Positions 1-35,218 of a stretch of DNA of 35,218 bases are shown here, in pieces; the first letter of the stretch is position 1, and every line of letters begins with the position of its first letter. This DNA is from a virus: positions 1 to 35,218 of IMG/VR virus record IMGVR_UViG_3300049915_000066; one strand, given 5' to 3'. Position numbers and translations under genes: made by a program. The notes beneath the pieces were generated by a model. It saw nothing but the letters and a program-made list of their open reading frames with translations, searched no databases and was not told the DNA's origin.

Positions 1-424
1 AGGCTCACCATCGAGGGGATGGACAGGCAGTGGGCGCTGGTCATCGTGGACACGGTGGCGCGATCTATCGCCGGGGCTGACGAGAACGCGGCGCAGGCGA
101 TTGGCATGTTTGTGCAGTCGTGCGATGCCATCAGGGAGGTGGCGGGCGGCACTATGCTGGCGGTGCATCACTCCGGCAAGGACAGCAGCAGGGGCGCCAG
201 AGGCAGCAACGCGCTGCTGGGTGCGATAGACACAAGCATCGTAGTCGGCAAGCTGGACAGCGTGGTCACGATCAAGGTGGAGAAGCAGAAGGACGCCGAG
301 CCGATTGACGAGATGAACTTCAACATGACGACCGTGCAGGTGGGTGTCACCGACACGTCTGTCGTGCTGGAGCGCACGGATGCGCCGGTGGATGCGCCCA
401 AGCGCAGGAAGCCGCTGGCAGCGA
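1..424. repeat. Left copy of terminal overlap
   Basis: This segment matches 34795-35218 base for base except at positions 12, 28, 63, 243, 273 and 297 (418 of 424 identical). Both copies lie inside the primase-helicase reading frame and are collinear with it. The simplest reading is that a circular or circularly permuted genome was linearised with an overlap, giving a unique length of 34794 bp. Five of the six differences are synonymous third-position changes and one is Gln to Lys, so the copies probably come from different members of a population. Confidence 0.9.
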
Positions 425-636
425 GCCAGCAGAGGGCGTTGACGGCGCTACAGAACCTGTGTGCAGAGCGTGGTGTCAGGGTGCCGATTGGCGAGTGGCA
501 TAAGGCTCATGAGCGCGATTGTCCCGACACACATACGTCTACACGCAAGACGGCGCGTGATGCTCTGGTGGATGGCGGTTTTGTGGTCATTGCGGACGGT
601 ATTTGCTGGATAAACAAGGAGTTAGGTGAGTTTTGA
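1..636 (+). CDS. Primase-helicase, C-terminal part (continues from 33583-35218)
   Basis: This is the 3' part of the gene that begins at 33583. The frame is open from base 1, so any internal ATG, such as the one at 19, is not a real start. Joined across the overlap, the full protein is about 615 residues. The part here carries the Walker B strand (LVIVDTVARS), then AVHHSGKDSSRGARGSNALL, a segment typical of RepA/DnaB-type ring ATPases, and after about residue 540 a basic C-terminal tail of unknown role. The family unwinds DNA at the phage fork. The stop is at 634-636. A GC-rich hairpin (645-662) and the CCGTATC repeat region follow directly. Confidence 0.85.
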   Translation, partial: RLTIEGMDRQWALVIVDTVARSIAGADENAAQAIGMFVQSCDAIREVAGGTMLAVHHSGKDSSRGARGSNALLGAIDTSIVVGKLDSVVTIKVEKQKDAEPIDEMNFNMTTVQVGVTDTSVVLERTDAPVDAPKRRKPLAASQQRALTALQNLCAERGVRVPIGEWHKAHERDCPDTHTSTRKTARDALVDGGFVVIADGICWINKELGEF

Positions 637-889
637 GGGCGATACGGCGGTGTGCGCCGCCGATACGGAAGTTGTTCTAGTTTGGATTTTTGGGTGATGG
701 CGTATAGTAGAACACGATACGGGAAACTTTTTGAGACGCCTATCGTTATAAAACAGATAGTTAGGATAGCAATTCCCGTATCAACCGTATCGGTACGGAG
801 TGTCCGTATCGGTGCGGTACGGTACGGTCCCCCTATAGGGACCGTATCGCCGTATTGGCCGTATCAGTATTTTGGTAAAGGAGGTGATT
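637..889. other. Intergenic CCGTATC/GATACGG repeat array, possible replication origin
   Basis: No gene is supported here. The region holds eight exact copies of CCGTATC or its complement. Three read GATACGG (641-647, 662-668, 716-722). Five read CCGTATC (776-782, 785-791, 804-810, 842-848, 859-865), and there is one near copy, CCGTATT (850-856). The two orientations flank an A/T-rich stretch at about 723-775. A hairpin pairs CGGCGG (645-650) with CCGCCG (657-662). A second pairs TACGGTCCC (823-831) with GGGACCGTA (838-846). Iterated, oppositely oriented motifs next to an A/T-rich core, beside the primase-helicase gene, look like an iteron-type origin or a multi-site operator. No convincing sigma-70 promoter was found. 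Confidence 0.6.
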
Positions 890-1489
890 ATGGCTGTTAG
901 AAAGAGACCGAAGAAGGCGCCGAAGGGATTGGACGCTAGGTTCTATCCGAATGAGCGAGACGCGAGGAAGTGCCAGAACGCTCTGGTGGAATACGACAGG
1001 GTTGTCAGGTCGTATGAGGCGAAGTGGGGCATCGACCGACTTCCCGGATTGGTGGATGCAGAAATGCGGGACCGCTGGTGGCAACAGTGGGATAAGCTGA
1101 ACGCGGCGATTGAGAAGGGGTCGGGTCCAGAGGTTGAGCATGCGGTGGAGGTGACCATTCGGGCATGTGGCGTACTGGAGGCCCGCGCCATTGAGCTTGG
1201 GGCGAATCCGCTCACCGGGGATCGGTGGGAGTGCCAGCTACCAGACGGCGGTGTGCTGGCGATTGTCAGGGATGCCGCCGAGGTGGTGCCGGTGCATAGT
1301 GAGGGCAGGTACGATCAGGTGTACTGTATGGACGAGGTAGCGAAGATCATGCAGCAATGGCGGGCAGACGAGGCCGGCAAGCTGGCGGAGAGCGTGAAGG
1401 GCGTGTTTCCGGGTGCCGTGGTGGACAGCATCGAGAAGAGGGTGCCGACAGCCACGGAGGTTGAGTTGAACGATGAAATACCGTTTTAG
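890..1489 (+). CDS. Hypothetical protein with SSB-like C-terminal tip (199 aa)
   Basis: I do not recognise the family. ATG 890 is chosen because a full-length Shine-Dalgarno, AAAGGAGGTGAT, precedes it at 876-887; longer frames reaching back to TTG 872 would start inside that site. The protein has a basic N-terminus (RKRPKK), a central helical segment rich in Trp and acidic residues, and no membrane segment. It ends in ELNDEIPF, an acidic tail with terminal Ile-Pro-Phe like the DDDIPF tip by which bacterial SSB recruits replication partners. Its place directly after the possible origin and primase-helicase fits a replication-associated role, which is inference. It is the first gene of a tightly packed run reaching TerS, and the strong SD suggests high expression. 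Confidence 0.8.
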   Translation: MAVRKRPKKAPKGLDARFYPNERDARKCQNALVEYDRVVRSYEAKWGIDRLPGLVDAEMRDRWWQQWDKLNAAIEKGSGPEVEHAVEVTIRACGVLEARAIELGANPLTGDRWECQLPDGGVLAIVRDAAEVVPVHSEGRYDQVYCMDEVAKIMQQWRADEAGKLAESVKGVFPGAVVDSIEKRVPTATEVELNDEIPF

Positions 1490-31407: not shown

Positions 31408-31520
31408 CTGTCTGTCTCCCGTTTAGTTGTTCTATTCCTGTACTACTTATATATCAACACTTGACACGATATACAAGTAATATATGCTCTTTTTTGTAAA
31501 TTATTTTGCAGGAGAGTTAA
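31408..31520. promoter_or_regulatory. Divergent early promoter region with dyad
   Basis: Plus strand: TTGACA (31461-31466) and TATGCT (31483-31488), 16 nt apart, face the regulator at 31521. Minus strand: TTGTAT (complement of 31471-31476) and TATATA (31448-31453), 17 nt apart, face the gene at 31407. An inverted repeat, ACTTG (31459-31463) and CAAGT (31474-31478), lies between them, flanked by ATATAT on both sides (31449-31454 and 31480-31485). The overlapping promoters and dyad fit autoregulation by the ribbon-helix-helix protein. Confidence 0.65.
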
Positions 31521-31724
31521 GTGTCTGAAATTAAACCAACATTGCTGCGGCTCCGAACATCGACCGCAGCCGGATTGAAGGAAGAATTGCAGTATTCGGC
31601 GCACCGAAGCATGTCCGCGCTCGCTGACGAGATCATCGAGATGGGGCTGCGGGTCAAGGCGCGGGAGCGGGCCGAGGCCGCCAACGGCGAGGCTGCGACC
31701 AAGCTGGCGGGCAGTGTGCGCTGA
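31521..31724 (+). CDS. Ribbon-helix-helix (Arc-like) regulator (67 aa)
   Basis: The start is GTG 31521, with AGGAGAG upstream. The N-terminus gives a short strand (KPTLLRLRTS), followed by two helices (AAGLKEELQYSAHRS and SALADEIIEMGLRVKA), the Arc/MetJ-type DNA-binding fold. A short polar tail follows. It probably binds as a dimer to the dyad just upstream and controls both early promoters. Its stop overlaps the next start (TGATG). Confidence 0.75.
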   Translation: MSEIKPTLLRLRTSTAAGLKEELQYSAHRSMSALADEIIEMGLRVKARERAEAANGEAATKLAGSVR

Positions 31725-32170
31725 TGGTAAACAGCCGCAACAAGGGCAAGTCCGGCGAGTATGAGGTGATTGCGATCCTCACCGAGAACCTCGGCGGCGG
31801 TGCCGACAAGCTGGAGTTTAAGCGCGACATTGAGCAGTACCGGCAGGGTGATCTGGGTGACGTTATATGTAATGACCCGGCGTTCCCGTTCACGATTGAG
31901 GTGAAGCGATACCGTCAGGGCGTACATGCACAGCCGCAGTGGTGGGATCAGGTCTGCACGGCGGCTGAGGCGTGTCGAAAGCTGCCGGTGCTGGTCTATC
32001 GCTATGACCGCATGCCGTGGCGGTGGCGCTTCCCCGTGGCGGCGATTGTGGGGATGTCTGACTACATCCCCTCCGGGGACATAGCCGAACAGTACGACTG
32101 GCGTTACGCTATGGAGTGCGACACCGAAACAGCAATGATGATAATCAGGGAGCATTTAGCCGATGTATGA
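31724..32170 (+). CDS. Putative Holliday-junction resolvase-like PD-(D/E)XK nuclease (148 aa)
   Basis: Motifs: RNKGKSGEYEVIAILTE (residues 5-21), YRQGDLGDVI with Asp43/Asp46, and FTIEVKRYRQG with Glu59-Val-Lys61, then QPQWWDQVCTAAE. This matches resolvase-like PD-(D/E)XK enzymes common in phage replication regions. It may resolve branched DNA before packaging. ATG 31724 overlaps the previous stop, and the end overlaps the next gene by 8 nt. Confidence 0.75.
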   Translation: MVNSRNKGKSGEYEVIAILTENLGGGADKLEFKRDIEQYRQGDLGDVICNDPAFPFTIEVKRYRQGVHAQPQWWDQVCTAAEACRKLPVLVYRYDRMPWRWRFPVAAIVGMSDYIPSGDIAEQYDWRYAMECDTETAMMIIREHLADV

Positions 32171-32384
32171 GACGATTTTAGCGTTTTGCTTTGCGATGAA
32201 AATAGGCGGCGAGCCAGCCAACCCGTGCTGGATGATGAAAGAGGATACGCGGTTCTACACGATAGAGCAGTGTCAGCATTATGCCGAGCGCCAAGAGGCG
32301 ACAGTCGCCGCGAGGCTGGCGCAGGACTATGACATGCCGCCGGTGGTGAGCGTGCAATGTGGCGCATATGAGGGCATGCGGTGA
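32163..32384 (+). CDS. Small protein with hydrophobic N-terminus and Cys pairs (73 aa)
   Basis: The first residues (YETILAFCFAMKIGG) are hydrophobic but short for a signal peptide. Cys residues follow in PCWMMKE, EQCQHY and VQCGAY, which could form disulfides if exported. Similar small phage proteins exist without known role. It overlaps both neighbours (8 nt and 4 nt). Confidence 0.6.
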   Translation: MYETILAFCFAMKIGGEPANPCWMMKEDTRFYTIEQCQHYAERQEATVAARLAQDYDMPPVVSVQCGAYEGMR

Positions 32385-32800
32385 GACCCAAGTATGAGAC
32401 ACCCGGCGACCTAGCCAATGAGCGGCACGTTGCCGGCGTTATGGACGGGCTGGGCTACGGCCTTGAGAAGCTGCCGATGCAGTACCGGCTCGACTTCGCC
32501 ATCTTCAAGGACGGTGACTGCCTCGGCTTCGCTGAGGTTAAGACGCGCAGCTTCGAGATGAACAAGTACCCGACAGTGATGATATCGCTGTCAAAGGTGA
32601 TGACCGCAAAGGTCATAACCGAGACCACGGGATTGCCCTGCTATCTGATCGTAAAATATAGCGATGTGATATCAAGGCTTGACTTCTCCGATCCGTATGA
32701 GTTACGGATGGGGGGCAGGGCAGATCGCTCAGACCCACAAGACCGGGACATCTGCGCGTTCTACCCTATCGAGCGGTTCACTATTGTGAGCCACATATAG
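32381..32800 (+). CDS. Second PD-(D/E)XK-like nuclease of the replication unit (139 aa)
   Basis: The start is GTG 32381, overlapping the upstream stop (GTGA). The pattern is NERHVAGVMDGLGYGLEKLP, then YRLDFAIFKDGDCLGFAEVK, with Asp38 and Glu52-Val-Lys54 in catalytic spacing. The C-terminal half (PTVMISLSKVMTAKVITETT) is typical of small PD-(D/E)XK domains. The substrate is unknown; it may be structure-specific or act on host DNA. Confidence 0.65.
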   Translation: MRPKYETPGDLANERHVAGVMDGLGYGLEKLPMQYRLDFAIFKDGDCLGFAEVKTRSFEMNKYPTVMISLSKVMTAKVITETTGLPCYLIVKYSDVISRLDFSDPYELRMGGRADRSDPQDRDICAFYPIERFTIVSHI

Positions 32801-33507: not shown

Positions 33508-33549
33508 GCGGGCGGCGGGGTGTTTCCTCCCTTTAGCCTCGCCGCCCGT
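33508..33549 (+). other. Long stem-loop between SSB-like and primase-helicase genes
   Basis: CGGGCGGCG (33509-33517) pairs with CGCCGCCCG (33540-33548), and wobble pairs extend it inward to about 13 bp. It begins 8 nt after the SSB-like stop. There is no U-tract, so it is probably not a simple terminator; an mRNA-stability or processing element is possible. AGGGAGAGCAAAGGGA follows as ribosome site for ATG 33583. Confidence 0.55.
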
Positions 33550-33582
33550 GCCTACCTAAAGGGAGAGCAAAGGGAAATTGCT

Positions 33583-35218
33583 ATGACACAGAATATTGCG
33601 GCACATGCCGAGCGCATCGCCAAACACTATTGGGGCGAGCCAAACAAGAAGCTGTCGAAGAAGGGGTTGCTGCGCTGGGGCAACGCTGGCTCTAAGGAGT
33701 TGGACATACAGCGCGGGGTCTACTTCGATTTTGAGGAAAATCACGGCGGGGGTGTGGTGGACATCGTGCGCCGATATGGGCGCCAGACGATCACCGGCTC
33801 AGTGGCTGAGACGTTGCAGCGTGACTTCGGCATAACGAAGCAGACGGCGGACTCGATGCAGCCCGCCAAGTACATCGAGAAAATCTACGAATACTATGAC
33901 AGCGATGGCGACCTGCGGTATCAGGTGCTGCGCTATCAGCCCAAGTCGTTTAGGCAGAGACGCCCGGACGGTAAGGGTGGATGGCTGTGGAACATGAACG
34001 ATGTTGAGCCTCTGCCGTACAATCTGCCAGAGATGATGCTGAACCCAGACGCGCCGGTGTTTATCGTTGAGGGTGAGAAGGCGGCGGAGCGGTTAATGAA
34101 GCTGGGCCTAGTTGCGACAACGTCACACGGCGGGGCCGGCAAGTGGTCTGACGCACTGGCGCCATATTTCGATGGGCGCAACGTGGTGGTGCTAGCAGAT
34201 AATGATAACGCGGGGGAGCGACACGCCGATCAGGTGGTGCGCTCAATCTGGGGCAGGGCCAAGGCGGTCAAGCGTGTTGAGCTTGCCGGGTTGCCGGAGA
34301 AGGGCGATGTAGTGGACTGGCTTTTTCAAGGCGGCACCGCTGAGAAGCTGATGGAGGTGGTCAGGGCCACGCCGGCGCTGGATAATGCGCCAGCGGAGGC
34401 AGAGGCTGCTGACGAGGCTCCAGAGGCGGAGGAAGAGGGCGTCCTAAAGCCGTACAAGCTGATGGATCAGGACGCGGTGTGGTCTATGCCGCCGGTCGAG
34501 TTTCTGGTTGACGAGCTTATCCCTGAGCGTAGTTTTTCGATGATCTACGGGGCGCCGGGCAGCGGTAAGTCGTTTCTGGCGATTGATATGGCGCTCAGTG
34601 TGGCGCACGGCGTGGACTGGCAGGGCAAGAAGGTCAAGCAGGGTCCAGTGCTTTACATAGCGGGCGAGGGTATGGGTGGCTTCGGCAAGCGCTGGAAGGC
34701 GTGGAGCATGCACCACAAGCTCGACAAGCGGCCGGAGATGTACCTGCTGCCCACGGCGGTCAACATGTTGGACAGCGAGGACGTGGCGCGGCTCAGGCTC
34801 ACCATAGAGGGGATGGACAGGAAGTGGGCGCTGGTCATCGTGGACACGGTGGCGCGGTCTATCGCCGGGGCTGACGAGAACGCGGCGCAGGCGATTGGCA
34901 TGTTTGTGCAGTCGTGCGATGCCATCAGGGAGGTGGCGGGCGGCACTATGCTGGCGGTGCATCACTCCGGCAAGGACAGCAGCAGGGGCGCCAGAGGCAG
35001 CAACGCGCTGCTGGGTGCGATAGACACAAGCATCGTGGTCGGCAAGCTGGACAGCGTGGTCACGATTAAGGTGGAGAAGCAGAAGGACGCGGAGCCGATT
35101 GACGAGATGAACTTCAACATGACGACCGTGCAGGTGGGTGTCACCGACACGTCTGTCGTGCTGGAGCGCACGGATGCGCCGGTGGATGCGCCCAAGCGCA
35201 GGAAGCCGCTGGCAGCGA
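33583..35218 (+). CDS. TOPRIM primase-helicase, N-terminal 545 residues (continues at 425-636)
   Basis: This bifunctional replication protein lays primers and unwinds DNA. Residues 1-95 have a TRP-rich start region (YWGEPNKKLSKKGLLRWGNA, then YFDFEENHGGGVVDIV) seen in phage primases. The TOPRIM domain shows VFIVEGEKAAE (159-169, Glu163) and VVLADNDNAGE (202-212, Asp206/Asp208). An acidic linker (270-286) leads to the helicase: Walker A GAPGSGKS (323-330) and Walker B LVIVDT (417-422). AGGGAGAG plus AAAGGGA precede ATG 33583. The reading frame leaves the window and re-enters in frame at position 425; full length is about 615 aa. Confidence 0.9.
   Translation, partial: MTQNIAAHAERIAKHYWGEPNKKLSKKGLLRWGNAGSKELDIQRGVYFDFEENHGGGVVDIVRRYGRQTITGSVAETLQRDFGITKQTADSMQPAKYIEKIYEYYDSDGDLRYQVLRYQPKSFRQRRPDGKGGWLWNMNDVEPLPYNLPEMMLNPDAPVFIVEGEKAAERLMKLGLVATTSHGGAGKWSDALAPYFDGRNVVVLADNDNAGERHADQVVRSIWGRAKAVKRVELAGLPEKGDVVDWLFQGGTAEKLMEVVRATPALDNAPAEAEAADEAPEAEEEGVLKPYKLMDQDAVWSMPPVEFLVDELIPERSFSMIYGAPGSGKSFLAIDMALSVAHGVDWQGKKVKQGPVLYIAGEGMGGFGKRWKAWSMHHKLDKRPEMYLLPTAVNMLDSEDVARLRLTIEGMDRKWALVIVDTVARSIAGADENAAQAIGMFVQSCDAIREVAGGTMLAVHHSGKDSSRGARGSNALLGAIDTSIVVGKLDSVVTIKVEKQKDAEPIDEMNFNMTTVQVGVTDTSVVLERTDAPVDAPKRRKPLAA
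34795..35218. repeat. Right copy of terminal overlap
   Basis: This is the second copy of the 424-bp terminal overlap described at 1-424. It ends inside the primase-helicase frame, which then continues at position 425 of the window. A break in the middle of a coding domain argues against a defined T7-type terminal repeat, which normally lies between genes. It fits a circular assembly or headful, permuted packaging. Confidence 0.9.

Follow-up and report, generated by a model that had tools for sequence, protein, structure and literature searches.

The spacer at positions 637-889 of the IMG/VR virus record IMGVR_UViG_3300049915_000066 is probably a replication origin, in which CCGTATC iterons would be bound by the C-terminal winged helix of the primase-helicase encoded directly upstream. 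Few environmental tailed phages have a known origin. The case made here is comparative and is built on related viral loci, in which the sequence of the repeats can be set against each part of the neighboring proteins.

The repeat array and its genomic setting

The window analyzed is the whole record of 35,218 bases. Its positions 1-424 and 34795-35218 form a terminal overlap of 424 bp with 6 mismatches, so the record closes to a 34,794-bp circle; it either represents a circle or has a terminal redundancy, and its two ends show strain variation. The presence of portal, scaffold, terminase and ejection-type proteins suggests a podovirus-like phage, and neither a DNA polymerase nor an integrase was found among the ORFs searched. 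The primase-helicase is a 636-aa ORF that runs across the contig ends (33520..34794 joined to 1..636). Its helicase part matches PF13481 AAA_25 (E 8.8e-39), and the protein has strong matches to PHROG primase families and a Toprim_3 match of 17.8 bits (cut-off 27.2). In Pfam only AAA_25 and this weak Toprim match were found, with no DUF927, D5/Primase_Cterm or SF3 helicase. At 31724-32800, upstream of the primase-helicase, are two genes for phage PD-(D/E)XK nucleases (PF24608, PF24579).

The spacer of 253 bp extends from the primase-helicase stop codon (636) to the ATG of the next gene at 890. As the first-pass annotation of this DNA had described, it holds eight exact CCGTATC 7-mers within 225 bp (641-865), three in reverse and five in forward orientation, which flank an A/T-rich core (723-775; 34% GC versus a genome mean of 55%) between the primase-helicase and a gene with an SSB-like tail. 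The single near copy counted then has become four one-mismatch copies (792, 816, 821 and 850), and the hairpins, given as two, are present and number three (646-661, 673-714 and 823-846). There are 13 copies in the window versus 2.9 (sd 1.7) expected, a number reached in 0 of 100 dinucleotide shuffles. A genome-wide count of motifs, suggested at the time as a check, agrees: among all canonical 7-mers of the 34.8-kb circle CCGTATC has the tightest local clustering (8 in 225 bp), and the next best, once overlapping shifts of CCGTATC are excluded, reaches 5.

The features of the region are collected in Table 1. The 24-nt hairpin at 823-846 has 9-bp arms and a 6-nt loop, and its core CCCTATAGGG lies between two repeat arms. 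The inverted repeat at 673-714 is compensated in one relative (L005), in which the arms read GTCCTA/TAGGAC. The A/T-rich block at 733-774 is a candidate unwinding element or host-factor site, and no DnaA boxes were found in the window. A T7-type RNA polymerase promoter was considered for CTATAGGG in the palindrome and rejected, because a search of 30 ORFs revealed no single-subunit phage RNA polymerase; CTATAGGG is part of the palindrome, whose core varies among relatives.

Table 1 Features of the putative origin region and its flanking genes, in window coordinates.
Feature	Positions	Strand	Basis
Primase-helicase gene, 5' part (Toprim-like primase and RecA-like AAA_25 helicase)	33520..35218	+	Domain and PHROG matches
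Primase-helicase gene, 3' part	1..636	+	Overlap of contig ends
C-terminal winged helix (H1, H2, H3, two-stranded wing), proposed origin-binding domain	358..633	+	Predicted fold
Predicted recognition helix H3 (TSTRKTARDALVDG), residues covary with repeat sequence	535..576	+	Model, covariation
Repeat 1, CCGTATC (GATACGG on +)	641..647	-	Exact match
Short hairpin GGCGG-TGTGCG-CCGCC	646..661		Sequence inspection
Repeat 2, CCGTATC (GATACGG on +)	662..668	-	Exact match
Inverted repeat TGTTCTA...TAGAACA, 7-bp arms, long loop	673..714		Sequence inspection
Repeat 3, CCGTATC (GATACGG on +)	716..722	-	Exact match
A/T-rich block	733..774		42 nt identical in L009
Repeat 4, CCGTATC	776..782	+	Exact match
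Repeat 5, CCGTATC	785..791	+	Exact match
Near copy, GGTACGG on + strand	792..798	-	One mismatch
Repeat 6, CCGTATC	804..810	+	Exact match
Two overlapping near copies, GGTACGG at 816 and 821	816..827	-	One mismatch each
Central palindrome TACGGTCCC-CCTATA-GGGACCGTA	823..846		Sequence; relatives
Repeat 7, CCGTATC	842..848	+	Exact match
Near copy, CCGTATT	850..856	+	One mismatch
Repeat 8, CCGTATC	859..865	+	Exact match
Downstream gene with SSB-like C-terminal tail (NDEIPF)	890..1489	+	ORF, natural swaps

Arrays with different repeats in related phages

Queries with the downstream protein and the helicase core retrieved more than 100 viral loci. A shuffle test found a significant array just 3' of the primase-helicase gene in 96 of 116 viral loci, whereas none of 115 coding controls from the same loci reached the array score. 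Relatives lacking any repeated motif at this position had been named as the finding that would count against the earlier reading; the close relatives all carry an array in a nearly identical spacer, and beyond them the layout is kept and the sequence changed. The next clade (L009) has TCGTATC-like copies wherever the close relatives have CCGTATC-like ones, and the 42-nt A/T-rich block is unchanged. This block is the same in L009 despite divergence of the surrounding repeats and of the flanking genes.

Farther relatives have spacers of approximately 100-140 bp with different repeats again: CCGTACC, CGTAG/CGGAG, CGGATC, ACGTAGC, ATCACA, GGTC/GGGACC, ATCGCAC/CCCACC, CGTATCG, GGTCGCA, CCGGACA, GGTCGGGT and GGACA. 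Most relatives also have a palindrome made of a C-run, AT and a G-run, such as CCCTATAGGG, CCCTAGGG, CCCTTAGGG or CCTTTAGG, among others. The repeat sequence is lineage-specific, and its copies change in concert.

Among cultured phages, the spacer 3' of the primase-helicase gene is occupied by GGTACA repeats in Idiomarinaceae phage 1N2-2, in which the next gene encodes an NTP-PPase, by GGTTCA in Alteromonas phage PB15, GGGACA in Salicola phage CGphi29, TGGGAAC in Rhizobium phage Y3_1 and GGCGGAGAT in Rhizobium phage N65, in which the array lies between convergent genes. The E. coli K-12 phage mckay (Dhillonvirus) has a candidate array of GCGGGACA, which opens the system to work in a laboratory strain. 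Streptococcus phage Javan199 has a less clean array of TGCGAAAA. Genome contigs of Ancylobacter, Methylocystis, an Opitutae MAG and a Thermoflexales MAG show the same layout. An array 3' of the gene is missing from at least six viral loci (L153, L158, L161, L166, L173 and L230), and none was seen there in Acadian, Gordonia Trine, Caulobacter GB2A, Vibrio 82E32.3 and Bas74.

In Caenibius sp. WL p1 (L238, NZ_CP081845.1) the spacer holds 12 TGCGGAA copies, many of them 9-13 bp apart, and a palindrome, and the order of primase-helicase, array and SSB-tail relative is that of the window. Its annotation revealed no further initiator. Although the record is filed under plasmids, the 38-kb circle is a phage genome that encodes a capsid, a terminase and an integrase. 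The arrays of the Rhizobium, Ancylobacter and Methylocystis elements (spacers of L098, L106, L100, L101, L104 and L102) share a second element resembling AAGTnnTTGAAATCA, often present twice, which recurs in looser form elsewhere.

The winged helix as predicted reader of the array

A winged helix is predicted for the C-terminal end of the primase-helicase, over approximately 80 residues (model pLDDT 72.5). The solved structures closest to it are winged helices, among them those of archaeal Orc2/Cdc6 (Z 9.2-9.6) and of MCM. The Foldseek E-values are weak (best 0.016), the P4 alpha origin-binding domain is absent among the Foldseek matches listed, and a single-protein phmmer search of the domain against the PDB gave no match.

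We measured the similarity of arrays by 5-mer profiles and compared it with protein identity. Across 36 loci, array similarity correlates with winged-helix identity at a rho of 0.67, and with the Toprim part, the helicase core and the downstream protein at 0.17, 0.18 and 0.16. The partial correlation is 0.65 for the winged helix given the core and 0.06 for the core given the winged helix; the Toprim part and the downstream protein likewise add nothing once the winged helix is accounted for. With control for redundancy the Mantel rho falls from 0.67 to 0.51, and in 33 non-redundant loci the partial correlation is 0.34 for the winged helix (permutation p 0.001) and 0.04 for the core, values that are indicative because the loci are related and not fully independent, so that natural swaps weigh most. 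The helicase core was rejected as the reader of the array, its partial correlation being near zero given the winged helix.

Two pairs of loci represent such swaps. L048 and L061 are 95% identical in the Toprim part, 94% in the core and 93% in the downstream protein, and their winged helices are 25% identical, with an array cosine of 0.11; the identity breaks at the linker between core and winged helix. In L039 and L044 the downstream protein is identical, and the helicase half and the array differ; the sequence upstream is mostly 90-100% identical, and identity returns to 97% from the next start codon. As the swaps pair identical proteins with different arrays, the SSB-tail protein was ruled out as array reader.

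At the level of residues, ATCACA arrays are common to helicases that are approximately 50% identical and have GKRRDAR or GNRRDAR in helix 3, and the alignment columns that best mark the ATCACA class lie at the start of this helix. One-residue steps accompany small base changes (KRRDAR with ATCACA, RRRDAR with TCGCAC). The Opitutae locus, which was found later with another query, fits, having GKRRDAR together with an ATCACA array. Computation thus links repeat identity to the winged-helix domain alone, and not to the primase, the core or the downstream gene. Judged by covariation and natural swaps, the putative initiator carries a DNA-binding domain matched to its array; from this we infer that the two bind physically and that the array functions as an origin.

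The downstream protein has a mostly helical predicted fold without a PDB match, and its likeness to SSB is limited to the tail. In this family of approximately 200 aa the SSB-like tail N/D-D-E-I-P is almost invariant among aligned relatives. Lying next to the probable origin, the protein may bring in host proteins that interact with SSB tails.

Origin function, alternatives and known systems

The first-pass annotation had left two options, an origin of a type not yet described and an operator with multiple sites. The comparative evidence speaks for the former, which is now well supported at the level of sequence, and against an operator as sole function. An operator at which the winged helix or another early regulator controls downstream transcription, with no role in replication, is unlikely. 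The array does lie directly upstream of the ribosome-binding site of the SSB-tail gene, the spacer is short in most relatives, and the linkage to the winged helix is also compatible with autoregulation. However, no sigma-70-like promoter was found in a scan of the region, the conserved palindrome and iterons exceed an operator's needs, and the array stays behind the primase-helicase whatever comes next, be it the NTP-PPase gene of 1N2-2 or the convergent gene of N65, which disfavors regulation as the only function. Regulation is possible as a second role beside the origin.

It is highly improbable that another phage protein uses the array as a packaging, partition or incompatibility site. Array identity tracks the winged helix of the primase-helicase only, the core and the downstream protein are unchanged in the swaps, and no Pfam or PHROG match to a partition protein was found among the ORFs scanned, although the terminase small subunit gene is 1.5 kb downstream of the array and iteron-like sites can serve partition. 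We give even less credence to an RNA-level element formed by the hairpins (attenuator, terminator or leader structure). The predicted folding of the strand is strong (z -6.5), but such a score is expected from any inverted-repeat array; the repeats occur in both orientations, with direct copies outside the stems and all changing together, and the region contains no terminator-like site and no Rfam family at gathering score. Chance or low-complexity repeats without function are ruled out for practical purposes by the conservation data, given the 96 of 116 spacers and 0 of 115 control stretches with an array score and the concerted change of all copies.

If the spacer is an origin, its palindrome and A/T-rich block would be surrounded by several primase-helicase molecules, docked by their winged helices on repeats of opposite orientation, and the DNA would open there. 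RecA-like helicase rings could then form on the single strands laid bare, with primers supplied by the primase half and extended by a polymerase, presumably that of the host, given that the ORFs searched yielded no polymerase gene. A palindrome, its two strands being identical, would be well suited to initiation in both directions.

Several known initiators share parts of this layout. The alpha protein of P4 combines primase, helicase and a C-terminal winged helix recognizing short origin repeats in one polypeptide (PMC4234260, citing Ziegelin & Lanka 1995 and Yeo 2002). The window protein has its helicase in one ORF with a primase-like part and a predicted winged helix, beside repeats that the latter may bind. 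The helicase of P4 alpha belongs to SF3, whereas that of the window is RecA-like AAA_25; to our knowledge, neither the palindrome layout nor the exchange of tail and array among relatives has been described for P4. SaPI Rep and SCCmec Cch2 are presented as self-loading initiator helicases with a C-terminal domain that recognizes iterons directly downstream of their own gene, the SCCmec Cch2 origin being putative (PMC7581432, citing Ubeda 2007). The window also has iterons directly 3' of the gene, and covariation suggests that they are read by a C-terminal domain, but the SaPI and SCC proteins carry DUF927 or Primase_Cterm/D5, whereas the window combines AAA_25 with a Toprim-like primase in a tailed phage. 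A C-terminal DNA-binding domain is common to P4 alpha, SaPI Rep, SCC Cch2 and pRN1, and an origin or putative origin 3' of the gene to the last three (PMC4234260, PMC7581432).

Plasmid RSF1010 resembles the window in its RepA-type helicase (PF13481 AAA_25) and in having iterons and hairpins near the origin. Its RepA, RepB' and RepC are three separate proteins (PMC4234260), whereas the window has the primase-like, helicase and winged-helix parts in one 636-aa ORF, the winged helix apparently standing in for RepC. For pRN1 ORF904, the origin lies within approximately 170 bp 3' of the replication gene, the protein has a C-terminal winged helix, and the stem-loop is poorly conserved in sequence (PMC4234260). 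The window shares an origin-like element 3' of the gene and a predicted C-terminal winged helix; pRN1 differs in being an archaeal plasmid with an AEP-type primase, an SF3 helicase and one large stem-loop without iterons, whereas the window has a palindrome and iterons. Lambda O is a phage initiator that travels together with its cognate iterons, which lie inside the O gene, and it loads the host helicase through P; in contrast, the window phage brings its own helicase-primase, and its iterons are outside the gene in the 3' spacer. The origin of the S. thermophilus phage Sfi21 reportedly lies 3' of a primase gene and may be a related case.

With putative initiator gene and iteron array adjacent, both in the window and in the 96 loci, the system is of a known kind, in which an initiator helicase has an iteron origin next to its gene, and belongs to none of the named families: the RepA-type helicase, the fused primase and winged helix, and the variable array motif place it outside them. 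By analogy it would work like P4 alpha/ori, SaPI Rep/ori, SCC Cch2 and pRN1 while belonging to none of them.

More tentatively, although we regard it as quite possible, the winged helix and the 3' element of iterons and palindrome may be an exchangeable address cassette defining a broad, undescribed class of phage origins, in which a readable recognition-helix code (KRRDAR-ATCACA, RRRDAR-TCGCAC, TRKTAR-CCGTATC, TRGSAR-CGGATC) would diversify array motifs and give related phages in one cell non-interfering origins. A search of openly available papers found no report of such an element. If the main reading of the spacer as an origin is right, the origin could be located in any phage with such a primase-helicase from the spacer after the gene, its address sequence could perhaps be predicted from a few residues, and the pairing of initiator and array would probably underlie whether related phages exclude one another or coexist. 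The swap pairs L048/L061 and L039/L044 make initiator-origin specificity testable.

A GC-skew minimum had been expected near the array. The detrended minimum lies instead at 31571, 4.0 kb (11% of the circle) away, and in seven other complete genomes it is 1-11 kb from the array, often nearby (2-22% of genome length), but skew is uninformative as an origin test because it is confounded by gene orientation, with minima tending to coincide with a divergent-gene boundary. Beside the skew minimum, at 31448-31571, the genome is at its most A/T-rich (22% GC in 60 bp), and gene direction changes in this region.
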